From positions 1 through 41,107 of the IMG/VR virus record IMGVR_UViG_3300047320_000339: DNA of 41,107 nt, one strand, 5' to 3'. Position numbers and translations under genes: made by a program. Shown here piece after piece: positions 8,563-41,107 of this stretch. The stretch comes from a virus. The notes beneath the pieces were generated by a model. It saw nothing but the letters and a program-made list of their open reading frames with translations, searched no databases and had not been told where the DNA came from. The stretch's first letter is position 1, and every line of letters starts with the position of its first letter.

Positions 8563-8681
8563 AAGCGCACCTGAAGAGCCACTACCAACGCAATGAGATT
8601 TTCTACCAGGCCATCCGCACCGCAGCGGTGATGATTGCCGCCCTAATTATTGTCCTGACATGGGAGCTGACCACAGCATGA
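8559..8681 (+). CDS. Single-pass membrane peptide (40 aa)
   Basis: 40 residues: a basic N-terminus (MKAHLKSHYQRNEIFYQAIR), one hydrophobic segment (AAVMIAALIIVLTW) and a short tail. It starts as ATGA over the stop of the PerC-like gene and stops as ATGA over the ParB-like start, so it is tightly coupled in the operon. This packing is the main support for it being real. Function unknown. Confidence 0.55.
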   Translation: MKAHLKSHYQRNEIFYQAIRTAAVMIAALIIVLTWELTTA

Positions 8682-9526
8682 GCACATTAGCGCGCATTTA
8701 CGACGACAAGAAAAATAGCGATACCGATATCACTACCCGCAAAACCTACCTGCTGGGCGTTGATGAGCTGTATGTCGAAACTAATTACAACATTCGTGAT
8801 ATCGATCAGACCCATGTCGAGGAGTTCCGCGACGCTTTTATCGCTGGTGAACATGTGCCTCCGCTGGCTGTTAAGGTCACCGAGAAGGGCATTAAGATCA
8901 TCGATGGCCATCACCGCTATTACGGTGCGAAGCTGGCTCAGGAAGCGGGCTATACGCTGCGCCTTGAGTGCAAAGACTTCGTGGGGAGTGAGGCGGACAG
9001 CGTGGCTTTCATGGTCACCAGTAGTCAGGGTCGCGCTCTGTTGCCGCTGGAACGTGCAGCCGCCTATCAGCGTCTCGTTAACCAGGGCTTAGAGCCAGCC
9101 GAGATTGCCGCAAAGGTGAAACGTTCGATCACCGACGTTGAACAGCACCTGCAGTTGCTGACCGTTGGCGAACCTCTGATTGAAATGGTGAAGTCCGGTG
9201 AAGTGGCCGCCACTACTGCGATTGCTCTACAGCGTGAGCACGGTGCGAAGGCATCCAGCTTCGCTCAGCGGGAAATGGAAAAGGCAAAAGCCGCGGGCAA
9301 AAATAAACTGACTAAAGCTGCTGCGATGCCTCAATTTAGCGCTGCTAAGGCGCGTCGGCTGGTGGAACTGCTTTGCGATGGGCAGTCAGTCGACGAAGAA
9401 GATGGTCTTACAGCGCTGTATCATAATTCCAGCTACACCGATGAAATTAAGTCAATCTTGGCAGAGTACCGTGAAGGACTTCACGGCTGCGAAAGCCTTG
9501 TCAGTGGAGTAGTTCTAAAATTATAG
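8678..9526 (+). CDS. ParB-like nuclease-domain protein
   Basis: 282 residues from the ATG at 8678, chosen because it overlaps the upstream stop; ATG at 8660 is possible. A ParB/Srx fold is seen with IIDGHHRYYGAK (about 74-85), then a ParB-type helix-turn-helix (LEPAEIAAKVKRSITDVEQH). In phages such proteins occur near replication genes and may bind DNA or act as nucleases or CTP-dependent clamps. No parA or centromere-like array is visible, so plasmid-type partition is unlikely. Confidence 0.8.
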   Translation: MSTLARIYDDKKNSDTDITTRKTYLLGVDELYVETNYNIRDIDQTHVEEFRDAFIAGEHVPPLAVKVTEKGIKIIDGHHRYYGAKLAQEAGYTLRLECKDFVGSEADSVAFMVTSSQGRALLPLERAAAYQRLVNQGLEPAEIAAKVKRSITDVEQHLQLLTVGEPLIEMVKSGEVAATTAIALQREHGAKASSFAQREMEKAKAAGKNKLTKAAAMPQFSAAKARRLVELLCDGQSVDEEDGLTALYHNSSYTDEIKSILAEYREGLHGCESLVSGVVLKL

Positions 9527-9548
9527 GTCAGGTATAGTGATTGTGATG

Positions 9549-9584
9549 AGTGTGAATTGAATATTATTTTTTTCAATTCACACT
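9549..9584. terminator. Long hairpin between convergent genes
   Basis: A 13-bp perfect stem, AGTGTGAATTGAA pairing with TTCAATTCACACT, and a ten-base T-rich loop. It lies between the end of the ParB-like gene and the end of the leftward island. Probably a terminator, although no T-run follows the stem on either strand. Confidence 0.5.
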
Positions 9585-9616
9585 TACTTATAGATATTCT
9601 TAAAAATAAATATAAG

Positions 9617-10366
9617 CTATGGTTTGAATTTACTCCAATCATCCTTTCTTGGATTAGGTTTAGGCTTGTCACTCATAGCCCACTGATACAAACTTTCAAT
9701 CGAATTGAACGTTAAATCAACAGCGTATTTTTCGGAGGTGGCATAGATAGTTGAAAAGAATGTATCCTCCTTATCTTTTTTAATGTCAGTTGTATTATCT
9801 TGGCAAACTTCACTTCCATTATTACAACCTCTTGAGTTTAATAGCCAATCTAAATATGTTTTAAACTCTGTTGCATTCAAGCCAGCGCTATTATTTCCTG
9901 CATGGTAAGCTAGTAATTTGCTCGGCTTGGTTTCTGGAAGCAGATTCATATCTTTTGCGCCTTTGCAATTTGGCAGGATAGATGTGTTGCACACAACATT
10001 TCTATAAATATCATAATTAGCTTCTAAACCTAGGCCTCTTATTTTATTCCCCCACATTAAGAAATGACAGGAGTCGTGGAGTGCAGTTATGAAATCATCT
10101 GAAGACAACCCGCAACATAACAAACAGACTGCTGGTTTTTTTTGTTCGTCTTTAATGTTGCCTTTATAAGATTTAAATTCTATCAAAAAGAAATTTTCAA
10201 AATTAGAATATAAAGTGTCGGCATTGAATCTATTGTCAAGGCCATTGAGGTGAGCCAATAGATCGATCTTTCCATGATGATCGCAGGAACTGCGAAATAC
10301 TCTGTCAAAATATTCCTTTACACTTTCCTCCCTACCGTTTCCTGAAGTTTTTTTTTCTTCTTTCAT
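9617..10366 (-). CDS. Putative PD-(D/E)XK-like protein of AT-rich island
   Basis: 249 residues, AT-rich codons unlike the neighbours. Asp50 in FNAD, then a strand ending IEFKS (Glu63-x-Lys65) and helix-forming DEQKKPA, give the D...ExK layout of a PD-(D/E)XK nuclease core. Several Cys residues follow (CLLCCG, C100, C126, C134). No closer family is recognised. AAAGGA lies six bases before the ATG. It is transcribed leftward, against the early operon, downstream of the FRG gene, with which it may form a defence or exclusion cassette. The nuclease assignment is inference from a short motif. Confidence 0.7.
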   Translation of the reverse strand: MKEEKKTSGNGREESVKEYFDRVFRSSCDHHGKIDLLAHLNGLDNRFNADTLYSNFENFFLIEFKSYKGNIKDEQKKPAVCLLCCGLSSDDFITALHDSCHFLMWGNKIRGLGLEANYDIYRNVVCNTSILPNCKGAKDMNLLPETKPSKLLAYHAGNNSAGLNATEFKTYLDWLLNSRGCNNGSEVCQDNTTDIKKDKEDTFFSTIYATSEKYAVDLTFNSIESLYQWAMSDKPKPNPRKDDWSKFKP

Positions 10367-10652
10367 ATTTATTCCTTTTTAAAGATTTTATGAAGTATTT
10401 TTCGGCTTGTAATCGAAAAGATTAATTTTTTTATGAAATTCCAGCCTTAAAAATATATCGACAGGGTCGATGTCAGCCGAACCCTTGATAAAACTCAACT
10501 TGATGATTTGTATTTTTATAAGTAAACTTAGGGGTTGGCCAAGGGTAATGAAAACTTAAAAGGCTGATACATATAGAATGCCGTGGTATAATTTTTCAGT
10601 TTTGAGATTAATGTGAGTGTTTATGTTTTATTAATAAACGCATTAAACAATG
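10367..10652. other. AT-rich spacer with small palindrome
   Basis: No gene seen. Contains a perfect inverted repeat ATCGAC-AGG-GTCGAT (10457-10471) that could be an operator for the downstream leftward gene, and a palindromic TTTATTAATAAA close to the end of the FRG gene. The 286-base gap suggests that the two island genes have separate promoters. Confidence 0.4.
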
Positions 10653-12014
10653 CTAAAAAATGTTTTTCCTGAAAGTATCATATTTTTTTGCTATTTCGCC
10701 AGCTGCTTTTTCAATTCCGGGATATACTGTGCTTTCATTTATCCCAAAACGAGCTAATTGCTCCATTATAGCTCCTTTGTTACCAATGCGAAATTTTCTT
10801 ATTCTAAGTTCGCTGTAACCAGTTTCAGGTAAAATTGCATCCTCACCAAATATGAGAAATGCGCCAGACTGTGAATTAATACGTGGGTTGGTCATTCTGC
10901 CTTTTACTACAATGATTCGTTTCAAATCCTTCGGTTCTATAATGTGCTTGAAGTAAGATTTTTCGTCCTTAATTAGATGCAGTAACTGTTCACATGCATC
11001 AGTGCTGTTGAATAAATCTTTATCAAGCTTGTAATCCAGAAGTTTTTTTTGATGTTCAGGTAAGCGCGAGAGGTTTGCAATGCAGCTTACGGTATCAGAA
11101 TCAAAGAATTTTATTTGATTCTTAGGGGTCGTCATTATTATGACATTCCCATCTACCTCTATGCCGTTTTCTGACTTGATGCTTGAGCAGGCAAAATAAA
11201 GTGCAATAAGCGGATTTGTCGTTACATCCAATAAACGAGTTGGTAGGCCGTAGTGTTGCATTCTTACCAATTTATCAAGCATATATCTATCGCTCATAAA
11301 CTCAGCGGGTTGAACAGTCAAAAGTTCTGTGATCATCTCCGATTCGTTTTGACGGTAACGAAAGTTTCCTTCAACACTTTTTCGGTAAAGCGATGGTGTA
11401 AGTTCATATCTAAAATCAGAATGACCACGATAAAAAACTTCTTCGTTTTCTCCGAACTCATGTTTCAATATTAGATTCAGATATGAACTAACGTTTGAAA
11501 TAATTTCTTTTTCATGCGGCTTATCTGGTGGGTTTATATTTGTAGCTGGCAAGGGCGGTAAGAATATATCTATTCCTAATACATTTAAGACTTTTTTTAG
11601 TTCAAGGTCTTTAACGGACCAATGCGTTCTATGAAGACCAAACGAACCTAATTGAAGAATTTGAGAGTATATAAGTTCTGAAGCGAGTTTACATCGACCC
11701 AAATTCGTAAGGATTGTGAACTTAAATTCGATAACTGTCTCGTTTTTTAGCTTTTTAACTTTTGAGTTTGATATAAAACCAATCCTAACTTCGGAGTAAT
11801 CCGCTATGCGATCATCATCTTTTTCTGGCTCAGTAATAAATAGGACTGGTAAAGATTCGAGGTAAGCTAACGATTCTGGATAGAGTGGCAGGAGTTTACT
11901 CCTTATATCCTCAGCGGTAGATTCGAACAAGCGAGAAACTGGAAAAGTCTCTTGCCCTTCATCGGCCTGAAAAAAATGATAGACATCTCCAGCTACAATC
12001 AAATTAAACATCAT
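10653..12014 (-). CDS. FRG domain-containing protein
   Basis: 453 residues. The C-terminal half has the FRG-domain signature: VFYRGHSDFRYELTPSLYR (about 193-211), then QHYGLPTRLLDVTTNPLIAL (about 253-272) and later INSQSGAFLIFG (about 379-390). The N-terminal 150 residues are mixed alpha/beta without a family I recognise. FRG proteins are of unknown biochemistry and frequently sit in mobile or defence loci. AAGGA stands before the ATGATG start. The gene is strongly AT-rich and runs against the surrounding early operon, so it is probably acquired cargo expressed from the prophage. Confidence 0.85.
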   Translation of the reverse strand: MMFNLIVAGDVYHFFQADEGQETFPVSRLFESTAEDIRSKLLPLYPESLAYLESLPVLFITEPEKDDDRIADYSEVRIGFISNSKVKKLKNETVIEFKFTILTNLGRCKLASELIYSQILQLGSFGLHRTHWSVKDLELKKVLNVLGIDIFLPPLPATNINPPDKPHEKEIISNVSSYLNLILKHEFGENEEVFYRGHSDFRYELTPSLYRKSVEGNFRYRQNESEMITELLTVQPAEFMSDRYMLDKLVRMQHYGLPTRLLDVTTNPLIALYFACSSIKSENGIEVDGNVIIMTTPKNQIKFFDSDTVSCIANLSRLPEHQKKLLDYKLDKDLFNSTDACEQLLHLIKDEKSYFKHIIEPKDLKRIIVVKGRMTNPRINSQSGAFLIFGEDAILPETGYSELRIRKFRIGNKGAIMEQLARFGINESTVYPGIEKAAGEIAKKYDTFRKNIF

Positions 12015-12322
12015 TCATCCTTGCCCTCAGGGGCTCCATGAAACAAGATAGGTCTTTAGTTTTGATAAAAAAACATGATTGGTCAACTGATAATTTTGCT
12101 AGTTAATGATGATTATATAAAGTTAGAATTTAAGCATTTCTTTTCAAAATAACCATTTATGTGTGATCTTTCATATCTCTTGTGTCGAAAGACATTTGAA
12201 TTTATTAAGGTTATAGTAACCAGCCCAGCAAATGAGTTGCAGCTTTTGCTGGTAAAGCTTGGCCCCGTTCATTTGCAGATGATGGGGCGTTGCCGTTTAA
12301 AACAGTGTGTGGAGAAGAAAGC
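12015..12322. other. Spacer and structured leader before the KilA-N gene
   Basis: No gene seen. The left part is AT-rich and must hold the promoter of the FRG gene. The right part has two hairpins on the plus strand: CCAGCAAA/TTTGCTGG (12225-12232/12245-12252) and GCCCC/GGGGC (12262-12266/12284-12288). They precede a GTGTGTGGAGAA element and may be an attenuator or the edge of the insertion. Confidence 0.5.
12305..12316 (+). repeat. GTGTGTGGAGAA element, copy 6
   Basis: Exact copy, six bases upstream of the KilA-N gene start codon. Confidence 0.7.
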
Positions 12323-13102
12323 ATGAATCAGCTTTTAGTGATTGATGGTGTTTCCGTTCGTCAGGACAACTCCGGCCGTTATTTCCTTAACGATCTTTAT
12401 CGTGCAGCAGGCGTAGAGCGCAGACATGAGCTTTCCTTGTGGCGCAACATTCAACAGACCAATGAACTCGTTCAGCTTCTGAGCGATACAGGAATTCCTG
12501 TATCGGTAATTAAGGGCGGAATGAACCAAGGCACGTTCGTATGCAAAGAGCTGGTCTACTCATATGCGATGTGGATCAGCGCCGAATTCAGTTTAAAAGT
12601 AATCCGCACGTACGATTCTCTGGCATCAAAGCCCCCCGTAGTTTCAATGCCAGAAGAAGTGCAGACCAGCATCATACTGCTTGAATCAGCCTCCCGAATG
12701 CTGAACTTTTCAAATTCCTCAAAGCTTGGCGCATATCAGAAGATTCAACAACATTACGGTATCCCCAACATGATGCCTGCGTATGCTATTGATGCACCCA
12801 TTGACGCACAAGACGGGTCAAGCCGTCCCACGCTCTCACTGAGTGCGCTTCTTAAGGCCAACAGTATTCGAATGAATGCGAGCCAGGCCTATCGTCAGCT
12901 TGAGAAGCTGGGGATCGTTGAACATAAAAGTAGAGCCAGCCGGTCAGGCACCGATGGTGTAAAGCTATTTTGGTCACTGACGGCTAAAGGCTGCATGTAC
13001 GGTAAAAACATCACCAGCCCGGCTAATCCGCGTGAAACCCAGCCTCATTTCTTCGAATCAAAATTTGCCGAGCTTCTCCGCCTGCTCGACACCGTGCATT
13101 GA
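12323..13102 (+). CDS. KilA-N domain protein, antirepressor-like
   Basis: 259 residues. The N-terminal 105 residues are a KilA-N domain (SGRYFLNDLYRAAGVERRHE, then TFVCKELVYSYAMWIS). The C-terminal half carries a winged-helix-like segment (IRMNASQAYRQLEKLGIVEH). KilA-N proteins of phages bind DNA and often act as antirepressors or toxic early proteins. The ATG at 12323 follows the GTGTGTGGAGAA element; an earlier in-frame start would lie within the leader. The gene resumes rightward early transcription after the AT-rich island. Confidence 0.85.
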   Translation: MNQLLVIDGVSVRQDNSGRYFLNDLYRAAGVERRHELSLWRNIQQTNELVQLLSDTGIPVSVIKGGMNQGTFVCKELVYSYAMWISAEFSLKVIRTYDSLASKPPVVSMPEEVQTSIILLESASRMLNFSNSSKLGAYQKIQQHYGIPNMMPAYAIDAPIDAQDGSSRPTLSLSALLKANSIRMNASQAYRQLEKLGIVEHKSRASRSGTDGVKLFWSLTAKGCMYGKNITSPANPRETQPHFFESKFAELLRLLDTVH

Positions 13103-13109
13103 GGTGACT

Positions 13110-14126
13110 GTGAGAGCATTACTTACGCCAGAGGTAGCACCGCGCACAGGGATTGTGTTGCTGAAGCCAGGGCCAGACCTATTGAAGCTGTTTAAGGGCA
13201 GGGTGGTGATCAGCACACCTACAGTGGATATGGCAGACCTGCCATCAGGGCGGCTGAATGACGGCACACAGCCGTTACTTGATGAGCCCTCACTGATTCC
13301 CTTCTTCAGTCACGAACGCGTGATAAAGGCCGCTGGTGGACCGAATGCGCTGGCATCTTTTGTCCAGTTCTTCGGGTGCTGCCAGTGGGAGCAGTTGGGA
13401 GTGTGGCATCACCATGAATTCACAGTGTCAGAAATCGAAAACGGCCTGGTGTCTCTTTGCTATAGCCACGATAATGAGTTCAGGGAAAACGGCGTACCTG
13501 TTAGCCTGGAGAATATCGCCAAAGGTAACAACGCACTCTGGATAATCAGGGCGGCATGCAGCCAGATGGCGCTAAACGGTGACCATCAGCTGACCCTGCC
13601 GGAACTGTGCTGGTGGGCAACCCTGAATGATGTGATTGACCTGATACCAGAGGCACCCGCACGGCGCGTTCTGCGTATGCCGAAAGAAAGTATCCAGAGC
13701 GGCGAGCTGAAAGAGGCCAGCATTGTTCCGGTGCGACCGGCGCGGGAGGTTATTCAGGATGCAGCGCAGATCGTCAAAAAGATAATCAGCCTCAATGCAG
13801 ACCCGGAATCACCAGAATCTTTCATGAAGCGCCCCAAGCGTAAGCGCTGGGAAAGTGAGAAGTACACACGATGGGTAAAGTCGCAGACTTGCGCATGTTG
13901 CGGCATACAGGCTGACGATCCTCATCACATCATCGGACACGGACAGGGGGGAATGGGAACGAAGGCGCATGATTTATTTGTGATACCGCTATGCAGAGCG
14001 CATCACGATGAACTGCACCGGGATATGAGAGCGTTTGAAGCGAAATACGGCAGTCAGATAGAGCTGCTGTTCAGGTTCCTCGATCACGCGATTGCAGTCG
14101 GAGTGATTGGGACAGACAAAAAATAA
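13110..14126 (+). CDS. DUF968 protein with HNH-like zinc motif
   Basis: 338 residues beginning MRALLTPEVAPRTGIVLLKP, the usual start of this family. The GTG at 13110 has GAGG five bases upstream. The C-terminal 85 residues hold a treble-clef HNH-like motif: C261-x-C-C264, HH272-273, then C295 and HH298-299. DUF968 proteins lie next to Q in many lambdoid phages, in place of recombination nucleases such as Rap/NinG, so a role as DNA junction or structure-specific nuclease is plausible but not established. Confidence 0.85.
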   Translation: MRALLTPEVAPRTGIVLLKPGPDLLKLFKGRVVISTPTVDMADLPSGRLNDGTQPLLDEPSLIPFFSHERVIKAAGGPNALASFVQFFGCCQWEQLGVWHHHEFTVSEIENGLVSLCYSHDNEFRENGVPVSLENIAKGNNALWIIRAACSQMALNGDHQLTLPELCWWATLNDVIDLIPEAPARRVLRMPKESIQSGELKEASIVPVRPAREVIQDAAQIVKKIISLNADPESPESFMKRPKRKRWESEKYTRWVKSQTCACCGIQADDPHHIIGHGQGGMGTKAHDLFVIPLCRAHHDELHRDMRAFEAKYGSQIELLFRFLDHAIAVGVIGTDKK

Positions 14127-15172: not shown

Positions 15173-15226
15173 ACCCCTGTTGCCGACGGGCAAGGCACTT
15201 ACCGCTTTTGCGTCAGGGGTTTTTTA
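15173..15226 (+). terminator. Second late-leader terminator
   Basis: Outer stem ACCCCTG (15173-15179) with CAGGGGT (15214-15220), an inner stem TGCC/GGCA, and a run of six T. A second barrier for transcription that lacks Q. Confidence 0.6.
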
Positions 15227-15242
15227 GTTAAAAAGACAGTTG

Positions 15243-15848
15243 TTATTTGAGTTTTAATAATTGTGCATCCATTGCTTCATAAGCACTGAACGAGCCGAAA
15301 CCAAAAGCTACAAGTGAAATAAATCCTGATATACATGCTAAAACGTTTAAAATCTGCCCACTCAGGGCCCATTTTTTGTTTTTGGCAAGCTCAGAGTTTC
15401 CGTATGCACTCTGCGCAAAATACGTTAGGCCCGCACATAACCCTGACGCTAAAACCCCAGCACAAAAAATTGCTAAAGAAAGCGCTATTGCTTTTGAAGC
15501 AGCTGGCGCAGAGTCTTTTTCCCAAATGTTGCCGAGAAAAGCCAAAAGTGCGATTGCTGCGCCTCCGTTCATGATCATAAATGCACGGCAAGCATTGGCT
15601 CCAACAGTGATCACTGATTTGAAAGTCTCGATCTGAAAAGCATTTATTGTTTTGTATTCTTCAAGCGATGCTTGATTCGTATGCTTCATTATTTCGAGAT
15701 CAAATTCAGGACGATCATTAAAGCTATCAACGTCAATGCCTCGCAAGTATGTTAATAGATTCTCCGTTTCTATAGCAGCTACTCTCGATTCTTTTACTTC
15801 TTCTACATCATTTATAATTGCGTCTAATAATTTTTTTGCGTCCATCAT
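15243..15848 (-). CDS. Multi-pass membrane protein, leftward cargo gene
   Basis: 201 residues. The N-terminal 75 residues are charged and helical (KKLLDAIINDVEEVKESRVA, later FDLEIMKHTNQASLEEYKTI), followed by about three membrane segments: residues 88-108, 116-142 and 160-188. AGGA lies before the tandem ATGATG; spacing slightly favours the second ATG (15845). It is reversed relative to the late operon, lies between Q and the holin, and is AT-rich. This fits a gene expressed from the prophage, for example for superinfection exclusion, but no family is recognised. Confidence 0.75.
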   Translation of the reverse strand: MMDAKKLLDAIINDVEEVKESRVAAIETENLLTYLRGIDVDSFNDRPEFDLEIMKHTNQASLEEYKTINAFQIETFKSVITVGANACRAFMIMNGGAAIALLAFLGNIWEKDSAPAASKAIALSLAIFCAGVLASGLCAGLTYFAQSAYGNSELAKNKKWALSGQILNVLACISGFISLVAFGFGSFSAYEAMDAQLLKLK

Positions 15849-15933
15849 TTTTTCCTAAGAAATTAGGGAGCTCTAATTATCTCAATAATTCTTTACAAAG
15901 AGAACCTTTACGATTTTTTAGCTCGCACTTTAT

Positions 15934-15964
15934 TGCACCCCCCCCTTTATCAGGCTCGGGTGCA
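15934..15964. other. Inverted repeat upstream of the holin
   Basis: TGCACCC (15934-15940) and GGGTGCA (15958-15964) separated by 17 bases. The site lies between the divergent membrane-protein gene and the holin; possibly a hairpin or an operator. Confidence 0.35.
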
Positions 15965-16011
15965 CTTACTTCAAACAACAGACAGCACCGACCGTAATCA
16001 CGGAGGTGAGG

Positions 16012-37996: not shown

Positions 37997-39121
37997 TCAA
38001 GGAGCTTTTGCCGTCACCTTTGGAATTTTCTTCCAAGCATATCTAAACTTGTTCTCTACAAGTCTAAAGCTAAACTCAGACATCGCGATAGTTAGAATTA
38101 TAAAGAAAGGGAATTTTAAAAAGCTAAGCTCTTTGATAATTACACTATCATCCAAAATAAAAACGTACTTCGTTATCGAAAGGGCGATGAAGTGTGTGAG
38201 ATAAATAGAGTAAGATCTCGACCCAACATATAGACACACTTTCTCAAACTTTTCACTGAACAAAAAGTAGCTCCGGTTATAGCTTGCAATGAATACCATC
38301 ACTCCTGAAAGCAGTGCAACCACTCCCACCTGAAAACTAACGATAGGATTGGGGTCCGTAAAAATGCAAAGCAAGAAGGTCAGAACAAGCAGCACTGCCA
38401 AAGCCAGTACTTTGTGGGACATAAATTTAGGATTAAACCTCTGGTAGGTTTCTTTTGTGCTTAACACGGCAATGATTACCCCTAACGCAATAGCATCTGT
38501 TCGAAGCGGCCAGCCCATAGGAGTATTCGAATTCAATGTCCTCGGGATAAAGAATTGAGCCACAATAATTATTGCCATCACAATGCACAAGTTTCTGTTC
38601 TTGAACATAAACAGAAAAATTGGCAGCAAGAGATAAAACTGATTTTCTAAAGAAAGGCTCCAATAAACCCCAAGATTTCCGCAGTTTCCTGCTGGTCTGC
38701 AAGAAATAAAGTAAAAATTACTTGTTTGTGTTATCGCGAAAAATGCCGACTTTAACATTTCTGGTAAAGGCAGGAATGCTTGATAGTTGTTAACCGCTAT
38801 AGTCAAAGCTATTGATATGGCTATCCAAAAAAACGCGGCAGGCAAGAGCCTGAATGCTCTTTTAATATAAAACATTTTTGACTGTAACAAGAAATCAGAA
38901 CGATTCATTTTGTGGAAATCTTTGTTGATTAGACTTCTCGTTACTATGAATCCTGATACGCAGAAAAATAAATCAACACCACTTCCAAACTTACTAATAT
39001 TTAGTATTTTAAAATAAAATGAATCTGGAGGAAGTATTAACGGAATGTGAGCTAGCATCACTGTAACAATCGCAATTGCCCTTAAAACCTCAATGTCTTT
39101 GTTAATCTCTTTATCAAGCAT
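37997..39121 (-). CDS. OafA-like acyltransferase (O-antigen modification)
   Basis: 374 residues with about ten membrane helices, Acyltransferase_3 family. The N-terminus has the conserved IEVLRAIAIVTVMLAHIPL with Arg14 and catalytic-type His25, then FGSGVDLFFCVSGFIVTRSL; GVYWSLSLENQFYLLLPIFL is a second family block. It would transfer acetyl or another acyl group to surface polysaccharide from the inner membrane. It is reversed and AT-rich, in the fibre-proximal place where SfV-type and P22-like phages keep gtr or oac serotype genes. It therefore probably changes the phage receptor and the host serotype. Substrate unknown. Confidence 0.9.
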   Translation of the reverse strand: MLDKEINKDIEVLRAIAIVTVMLAHIPLILPPDSFYFKILNISKFGSGVDLFFCVSGFIVTRSLINKDFHKMNRSDFLLQSKMFYIKRAFRLLPAAFFWIAISIALTIAVNNYQAFLPLPEMLKSAFFAITQTSNFYFISCRPAGNCGNLGVYWSLSLENQFYLLLPIFLFMFKNRNLCIVMAIIIVAQFFIPRTLNSNTPMGWPLRTDAIALGVIIAVLSTKETYQRFNPKFMSHKVLALAVLLVLTFLLCIFTDPNPIVSFQVGVVALLSGVMVFIASYNRSYFLFSEKFEKVCLYVGSRSYSIYLTHFIALSITKYVFILDDSVIIKELSFLKFPFFIILTIAMSEFSFRLVENKFRYAWKKIPKVTAKAP

Positions 39122-40111: not shown

Positions 40112-41107
40112 TCAGGGCTTAATGAGTGTTCTAATATGGTTTATTTCATCATCATTGAATAAGTCTTTAATGTCATCATCAAGTTTAGATAAAACTTTTT
40201 CAATTAACTTTTTCTGTAACGTTTGGTGAGTTTTATCTTTAGTGGGAACTGTTAGTGCTCTCGTAACTAACTCTTTGATTTCCTTGATATCAATATACTC
40301 CTTACAAATTAGCGTGTAACAAGCTAGGTTATAGAGTAGTACCGGGTTGCTATTGTCATTCTTTACTAGCTCTTTAATTATTTTAAGAGCTCCCTGTACG
40401 TCATTGATACGTTTTAGTACGAAGGCTTTAAGTACTAGGAATTTATCATAAAGCTTATAATTTGATTTCTTATCAATCAACTTCAAGCCTTCATTGATAA
40501 AAGAGATGGCATCATGATATTTCTTTTGAGATGCAAGCTTGGCTTCATCAGTGATCGGTTTTTGTTGACTATATCGCTGAGCTGCTTCAACAGCATCTTT
40601 AGCTTTGATATAAAGAAGGTCAATTCTTAATTCAATATCGCGTTGTTTCAGTTCTTTATTTTCACGCTGTAATGAATCAATGTCATGTTTGGTTTCTTTA
40701 CTTTCTTCGTTAAGCACTTTCACTTCACTTTGAAGAACCTTATTTGCAATATTATCAAGTAACCCATATCCAAGGTAAGAAGCAATGCCAGCAAGAGAAA
40801 TCAACATAAAAATTTGTTCAATAAAAACCGAAGGTGATTTATCACCTAAAGGTAGCAGGATAGATTCATAGTTTAGATGCAAAAATGATGCAATGAATGG
40901 CAGGCATATGAATGCGGAGCCAATCCCTATTGAATGAGAACTTAGTATTTTTAGATTTTTATCTTCTTCTGTAATAGAAATTTTACCTCGCCTAAGATTA
41001 CTTCCTAAAATAGCGCCGGCTAGTATTATCAATACTAGAAAACCAAAATTAAGAAGCACTTCAACCGTAGGGTGTTTGATTAAAGAAAAATACGAGTTTT
41101 TATCCAT
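40112..41107 (-). CDS. Membrane, coiled-coil and helical-repeat protein
   Basis: 331 residues; the ATG lies at the very edge of the window, so the start is plausible but upstream sequence is unseen. Three membrane segments (about 15-37, 56-79, 94-118) are followed by a coiled coil (KVLNEESKETKHDIDSLQRE, about 128-165). A helical-repeat region of TPR type (about 170-300) contains YHDAISFINEGLKLI and VQGALKIIKELVKNDNSNPV, LLYNLACYTLI. No family name recognised. It is AT-rich and convergent with the SOS pair; it may be prophage cargo or the first host gene beyond the prophage. The plan, a membrane anchor with an interaction scaffold, is common in prophage defence proteins. Confidence 0.7.
   Translation of the reverse strand: MDKNSYFSLIKHPTVEVLLNFGFLVLIILAGAILGSNLRRGKISITEEDKNLKILSSHSIGIGSAFICLPFIASFLHLNYESILLPLGDKSPSVFIEQIFMLISLAGIASYLGYGLLDNIANKVLQSEVKVLNEESKETKHDIDSLQRENKELKQRDIELRIDLLYIKAKDAVEAAQRYSQQKPITDEAKLASQKKYHDAISFINEGLKLIDKKSNYKLYDKFLVLKAFVLKRINDVQGALKIIKELVKNDNSNPVLLYNLACYTLICKEYIDIKEIKELVTRALTVPTKDKTHQTLQKKLIEKVLSKLDDDIKDLFNDDEINHIRTLIKP

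Follow-up and report, generated by a model that had tools for sequence, protein, structure and literature searches.

An AT-rich two-gene island in the early region of a lambdoid prophage: two candidate single-gene defence cargoes at a hypervariable site

Introduction

Between the ParB-like and KilA-N genes of a lambdoid prophage lies an island of two minus-strand, AT-rich genes, encoding a probable nuclease (P0001) and an FRG-domain protein (P0002). Do these genes work together as one defence system, as an earlier sequence-only reading had proposed, or are they separate cargo that happens to share a site, and what may each of them do? The window, meaning the whole analysed stretch of 41,107 nucleotides, is a virus record whose first gene encodes an integrase, and the closest phage record across the island region is that of Pantoea phage AH07. 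The reading favoured here, which is considered moderately probable, is that the island consists of two single-gene defence candidates, each mobile on its own, at a hypervariable site, P0001 being the nuclease and P0002 the FRG effector.

The island and its borders

The features of the island and its surroundings, with the evidence for each in brackets, are as follows.

8660-9526, plus strand: ParB-like gene, bounding the cargo site on the left (HTH_ParB in Pfam, E=4e-8; 76 sibling contigs)
9374-13110, no strand: region differing from Pantoea phage AH07 (alignment; flanks 92% and 96% identical)
9549-9584, no strand: perfect 13-bp inverted repeat in the gap where the ParB-like and P0001 genes converge (sequence)
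9617-10366, minus strand: P0001, 249 aa, probable standalone PD-(D/E)XK nuclease (invariant residues, structure model)
10367-10652, minus strand: spacer between P0001 and P0002, 286 bp (comparison with the sibling prophage L002)
10653-12014, minus strand: P0002, 453-aa FRG-domain protein (PF08867, PDC-S15, phrog_4962, alignment)
12290-13102, plus strand: KilA-N gene (PF04383, E=2.8e-17)
13032-14126, plus strand: DUF968/HNH-type gene, bounding the cargo site on the right (annotations of the phage and E. coli genes that match it)

The placement of two leftward, low-GC genes between ParB-like and KilA-N genes, as given by the sequence-only reading, holds: the coordinates are exact, Pfam confirms the flanking genes, and the GC gap has been measured. 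The P0001 and P0002 genes have GC contents of 0.357 and 0.366, against 0.528 for the ParB-like gene and 0.535 for the DUF968 gene, and the island as a whole (0.355) lies below every 2.4-kb segment elsewhere in the window (minimum 0.385, median 0.523). The mechanically called KilA-N frame starts at a TTG codon at 12290, while the ATG at 12324 is the likelier start. Conservation on the right-hand side of the cargo site resumes at about 13110.

Comparison with L002 indicates purifying selection on both island genes (dN/dS of about 0.15 and 0.08). Chance open reading frames were rejected as an explanation on these values (0.08-0.15) and on the existence of distant homologues. The inverted repeat is likely a terminator region, and L002 has a similar repeat at the equivalent place. 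The spacer between the two genes is 289 bp long in L002 and clearly diverged in sequence from the 286 bp of the window. Within it, a promoter scan returned a promoter-like site at 10413-10385 (minus strand), sites of this kind being no more frequent than in shuffled sequences. Probably, P0001 is transcribed separately from P0002.

A cargo hotspot between the ParB-like and DUF968 genes

AH07 matches the window at 92% identity up to 9373 and at 96% from 13111 onward; in the interval it lacks both P0001 and P0002 and carries transglycosylase-like and RusA-like genes instead. The site was surveyed in 80 viral contigs with the ParB-like gene plus the window (81 in total), and the DUF968 gene lies downstream of the ParB-like gene in 76 of them, the window included. 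The interval ranges from 0.9 to 5.3 kb across the 76 sibling contigs, and leftward open reading frames longer than 100 residues, mostly of 33-38% GC, occur in about 30 of the 76; these frames are mechanical calls, of which a few are probably spurious, and some contigs are near-duplicates. Because both the length and the gene content of the interval vary between siblings, it is a cargo hotspot of enterobacterial lambdoid prophages.

The cargo is diverse. A P0002-type FRG gene sits at the site in the window, L002/L107 and L003/L152, a second FRG type in L176 and L182, an Mrr_cat nuclease in L002/L163, and a PDC-S31/DUF2971-like protein in L129, L157 and L158, and several other cargo proteins appear to be membrane-anchored with coiled coils. 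When ten cargo proteins of the site were scanned with PADLOC, two gave strong matches to its candidates, namely the PDC-S31/DUF2971-like protein and the second FRG type, and most of the other leftward cargo scanned gave none.

Leftward cargo is found elsewhere in the window, too. A further insertion at 15219-15965 contains a leftward gene for an apparent membrane protein of 201 aa (15243-15848) that is absent from AH07; the two phages are otherwise collinear there, with about 750 bp in the window and about 100 bp in AH07. At 37997-39121, a leftward AT-rich gene encodes an acyltransferase (PF01757; the phrog is O-antigen acetylase/O-acetyltransferase), likely surface-modifying cargo, and at the end of the record (40112-41107) stands a leftward AT-rich gene for a 331-aa protein with no clear family match.

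P0002, an FRG-domain protein

P0002 is, by its sequence, a member of the FRG family. The domain read earlier from the motifs FYRGHSD and GLPTRLLD, both of which are present, is confirmed by PF08867, whose match (E=7.7e-22, 78.4 bits) is well above the curated Pfam cut-off of 25. The protein consists of an N-terminal region of about 165 aa, the FRG domain (192-282) and a conserved C-terminal region reaching to about residue 446. The PADLOC PDC-S15 model PDLC04936 matches residues 168-446 (E=1.3e-100), and phrog_4962 matches the full length (E=4.5e-79). In an alignment of 12 relatives, F194-Y-R196-G-H-S and Q253-H...L257-P-T-R-L-L-D are invariant or nearly so, and S381-Q-S-G-A-F is invariant.

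The sequence-only reading had called FRG proteins uncharacterised, a description that is now dated: published work counts FRG as part of the ADP-ribosyltransferase superfamily and puts it forward as an anti-viral effector, possibly an NADase (PMC9503650). The fold of P0002 is taken from this literature since our own single-sequence model reached a mean pLDDT of 31.7. A search of the literature on PDC-S15 and FRG found no functional test.

Relatives of P0002 occur in 29 of 392 sampled Enterobacteriaceae genomes, as solitary genes with unrelated neighbours. These neighbours, whose identities were read from sequence, apparently include a P4-like primase, a P2 tail gene end and plasmid mobilisation genes. 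ADP-ribosyltransferase-type enzymes can be toxins, and the window also carries the O-antigen acetylase-like acyltransferase; both facts would suit an explanation in which either island gene has nothing to do with phage exclusion and serves in lysogenic conversion or as a toxin, the FRG protein for example being a host-directed toxin. However, FRG genes of this architecture are found repeatedly as solitary genes, in phages, in mobile elements and in what appears to be a P4-like satellite; no antitoxin or secretion partner is evident near them, and PADLOC lists such genes as defence candidates. Toxin cargo is thus regarded as quite unlikely, and defence is preferred.

P0001, a putative PD-(D/E)XK nuclease

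P0001 has the residues D50, E63 and K65, on which the proposal of a nuclease had been built, and none of them varies among the aligned relatives. A conserved D...(D/E)-x-K triad is typical of the PD-(D/E)XK superfamily, and a Glu in helix A often accompanies it. Among ten relatives with 22-79% identity, E13 is invariant together with these three, and so are E74, K77, C84, H97, C100, H101, Y121 and C126, of which C84, H97, C100, H101 and C126 make up a Cys/His cluster. Neither Pfam, NCBIfam nor PADLOC matched P0001 and its relatives as a group with any family, and PHROGs gave P0001 a non-significant match only. The P0001 family is therefore described here as new on the ground that four libraries hold no match to it. 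A link to HEC-02B was rejected as too weak, being seen for one member only (E=0.0015).

The AlphaFold2 model of P0001 has a mean pLDDT of 77, with core blocks mostly at 79-96. DSSP places helices and strands in the order helix 12-30, strands 36-39, 51-54 and 59-67, helices 68-100, and strands 101-109 and 113-120, which reads as alpha-beta-beta-beta-alpha-beta; D50 stands at the start of the second strand (51-54), and E63 and K65 are in the third (59-67). A structure prediction had been suggested as a check on the nuclease core, and its outcome is divided: the predicted core order fits PD-(D/E)XK, while Foldseek returned no fold match at E<=0.001 (best in PDB, Hjc at E=3.5; best viral, E=0.33). 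Among the weak matches, all below significance, Hjc, RecE, VRR-NUC and a restriction endonuclease come up repeatedly. Profile comparison of the family with Mrr_cat and VRR_NUC gave no match, nor did sequence searches of solved structures. Because the catalytic residues are invariant and the predicted topology fits, the nuclease proposal is supported, and membership of P0001 in the PD-(D/E)XK class appears quite probable.

Distribution and neighbours of P0001 relatives

By tblastn, relatives of P0001 were found in 111 plasmid records, chiefly of Klebsiella and Raoultella and mostly conjugative. Many of these records come from clinical Klebsiella, and the gene is annotated there as a hypothetical protein. 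Relatives also occur in a few chromosomes, in viral contigs and in P2-like prophages or their remnants. When P0001 by itself was used to scan viral contigs for close relatives, nothing was found; the relatives in viral contigs were recovered only with an alignment query.

The neighbours of several relatives are known or suspected defence genes. In Trinickia (L016) the relative adjoins ZorA and ZorB, in Achromobacter AbiH (L015) or Mrr_cat (L008) is nearby, and in the viral contig L020 the relative adjoins GmrSD_N. Furthermore, relatives lie beside a methyltransferase and a type II endonuclease on a Leclercia plasmid (L004), DUF2971 on a Pantoea plasmid (L005), a caspase on a Klebsiella plasmid (L010) and N6_Mtase in Pectobacterium (L007). 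Taken as individual loci rather than against a random-gene baseline, these neighbours look like defence-island company. Other relatives are located at the P2-like tail gene end (L019, and L011 by sequence), and the copies on Klebsiella-group plasmids are near a Rep3-type initiator gene.

This last position is what a backbone gene would have, and P0001 might accordingly be a nuclease for element maintenance, acting in plasmid replication or recombination or in Hjc-like resolution, rather than in defence. The weak resemblance of its fold to Hjc resolvases is in line with such a role, and so is its site in the early region of the prophage, a place that RusA takes in a sibling phage. But relatives also occur in chromosomes and in remnants of P2-like prophages, defence genes adjoin several of them, and in the window P0001 is leftward cargo outside the rightward operon. 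Maintenance is hence judged unlikely, and a defence nuclease remains the preferred reading of P0001.

There are also divergent members. In Kluyvera, a relative beside UmuDC-like genes is split over two frames (L014:6001-6605) and is probably a decayed gene. Two remote relatives (L025:1180-1785, E 7e-4; L050:207-848, E 1e-5) keep the Glu...Asp...E-F-K pattern, while much of the Cys cluster is missing from them; they may form a broader family with P0001.

One system or two genes

P0001 and P0002 were found side by side in just two prophages, the window and its relative L002, at the same site. The proteins of these two prophages are 79% (P0001) and 78% (P0002) identical, and the synonymous distance is about 0.9-1.8. 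Gene order, strand and the near-identical spacing (286 and 289 bp) have thus been kept in two diverged prophages, so some linkage between the genes is possible, and it could be explained by one cooperative system with the FRG protein as sensor or signal maker and the nuclease as effector.

The search for conserved adjacency across genomes, which had been proposed as a check on the pair, speaks against such a system, for beyond the window it found L002 only. In the sibling L003, the FRG gene occupies this site and P0001 is missing. Twenty of 21 viral FRG loci are without P0001, the exception being the L002 contig, and so are all eight FRG loci of the widened genomic set. Conversely, no FRG gene was found within the 3-6 kb searched on each side of the 16 non-sibling P0001 loci, and among seven genomes with P0001, none has a close FRG relative and one has a weak FRG match. 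In the 392 Enterobacteriaceae genomes, FRG genes were found in 29 and P0001 relatives in two, never together. The spacer, moreover, is long and diverged. The pair as one conserved system was therefore rejected, and cooperation between the two proteins is highly improbable; since adjacency is rare, the partner is missing elsewhere and the spacer has diverged, the genes look like two separate cargo genes sharing a hotspot.

Proposed roles of the two genes

A prophage-borne defence function of the island genes is plausible in view of the PADLOC matches, the neighbours and the hotspot. P0002 would be an effector of the FRG type, with an ADP-ribosyltransferase fold and an N-terminal region of its own, and would most likely be triggered by this region or by the phage context. 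Once activated, it may consume NAD+ or modify a target, and the infected cell would then no longer support the invader. P0001 would be a small standalone PD-(D/E)XK endonuclease that may cleave the DNA of invading phages or competing elements, its conserved Cys/His cluster presumably serving as a metal site. The two would act independently, each neither needing the other nor usually having it nearby.

More tentatively, P0001 could found an undescribed single-gene PD-(D/E)XK family with a metal-binding Cys/His cluster that attacks invading DNA, distributed on enterobacterial prophages and large conjugative resistance plasmids, possibly as a weapon between elements. If P0001 is a DNA-cutting defence gene, it would help to account for the way in which these plasmids and prophages keep rivals out. 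The lambdoid site from the ParB-like to the DUF968 gene is also a practical place for mining phage-carried defence genes.

Comparison with known systems

P0002 resembles PDC-S15, a single-gene phage defence candidate, in being a solitary FRG gene of a type found on mobile elements, and differs in its N-terminal region of about 165 aa, which extends beyond the PDC-S15 models. P0001 shares the conserved E...D...E-x-K residues and, in its predicted model, the alpha-beta-beta-beta-alpha-beta core with PD-(D/E)XK nucleases such as the Hjc and VRR-NUC groups; unlike these, it carries a C-terminal region and a C/H/C/H/C cluster that is invariant, and no significant structural or profile match joins it to them. 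As for the site, the gpA-gpQ interval of P2 and the psu-int interval of P4 are prophage defence hotspots that have been surveyed systematically (PMC9122126). Like them, the lambdoid site is a small (1-5 kb) interval of high turnover between conserved phage genes with candidate defence genes inside, whereas its location in the early region and its ParB-like and DUF968 borders set it apart.
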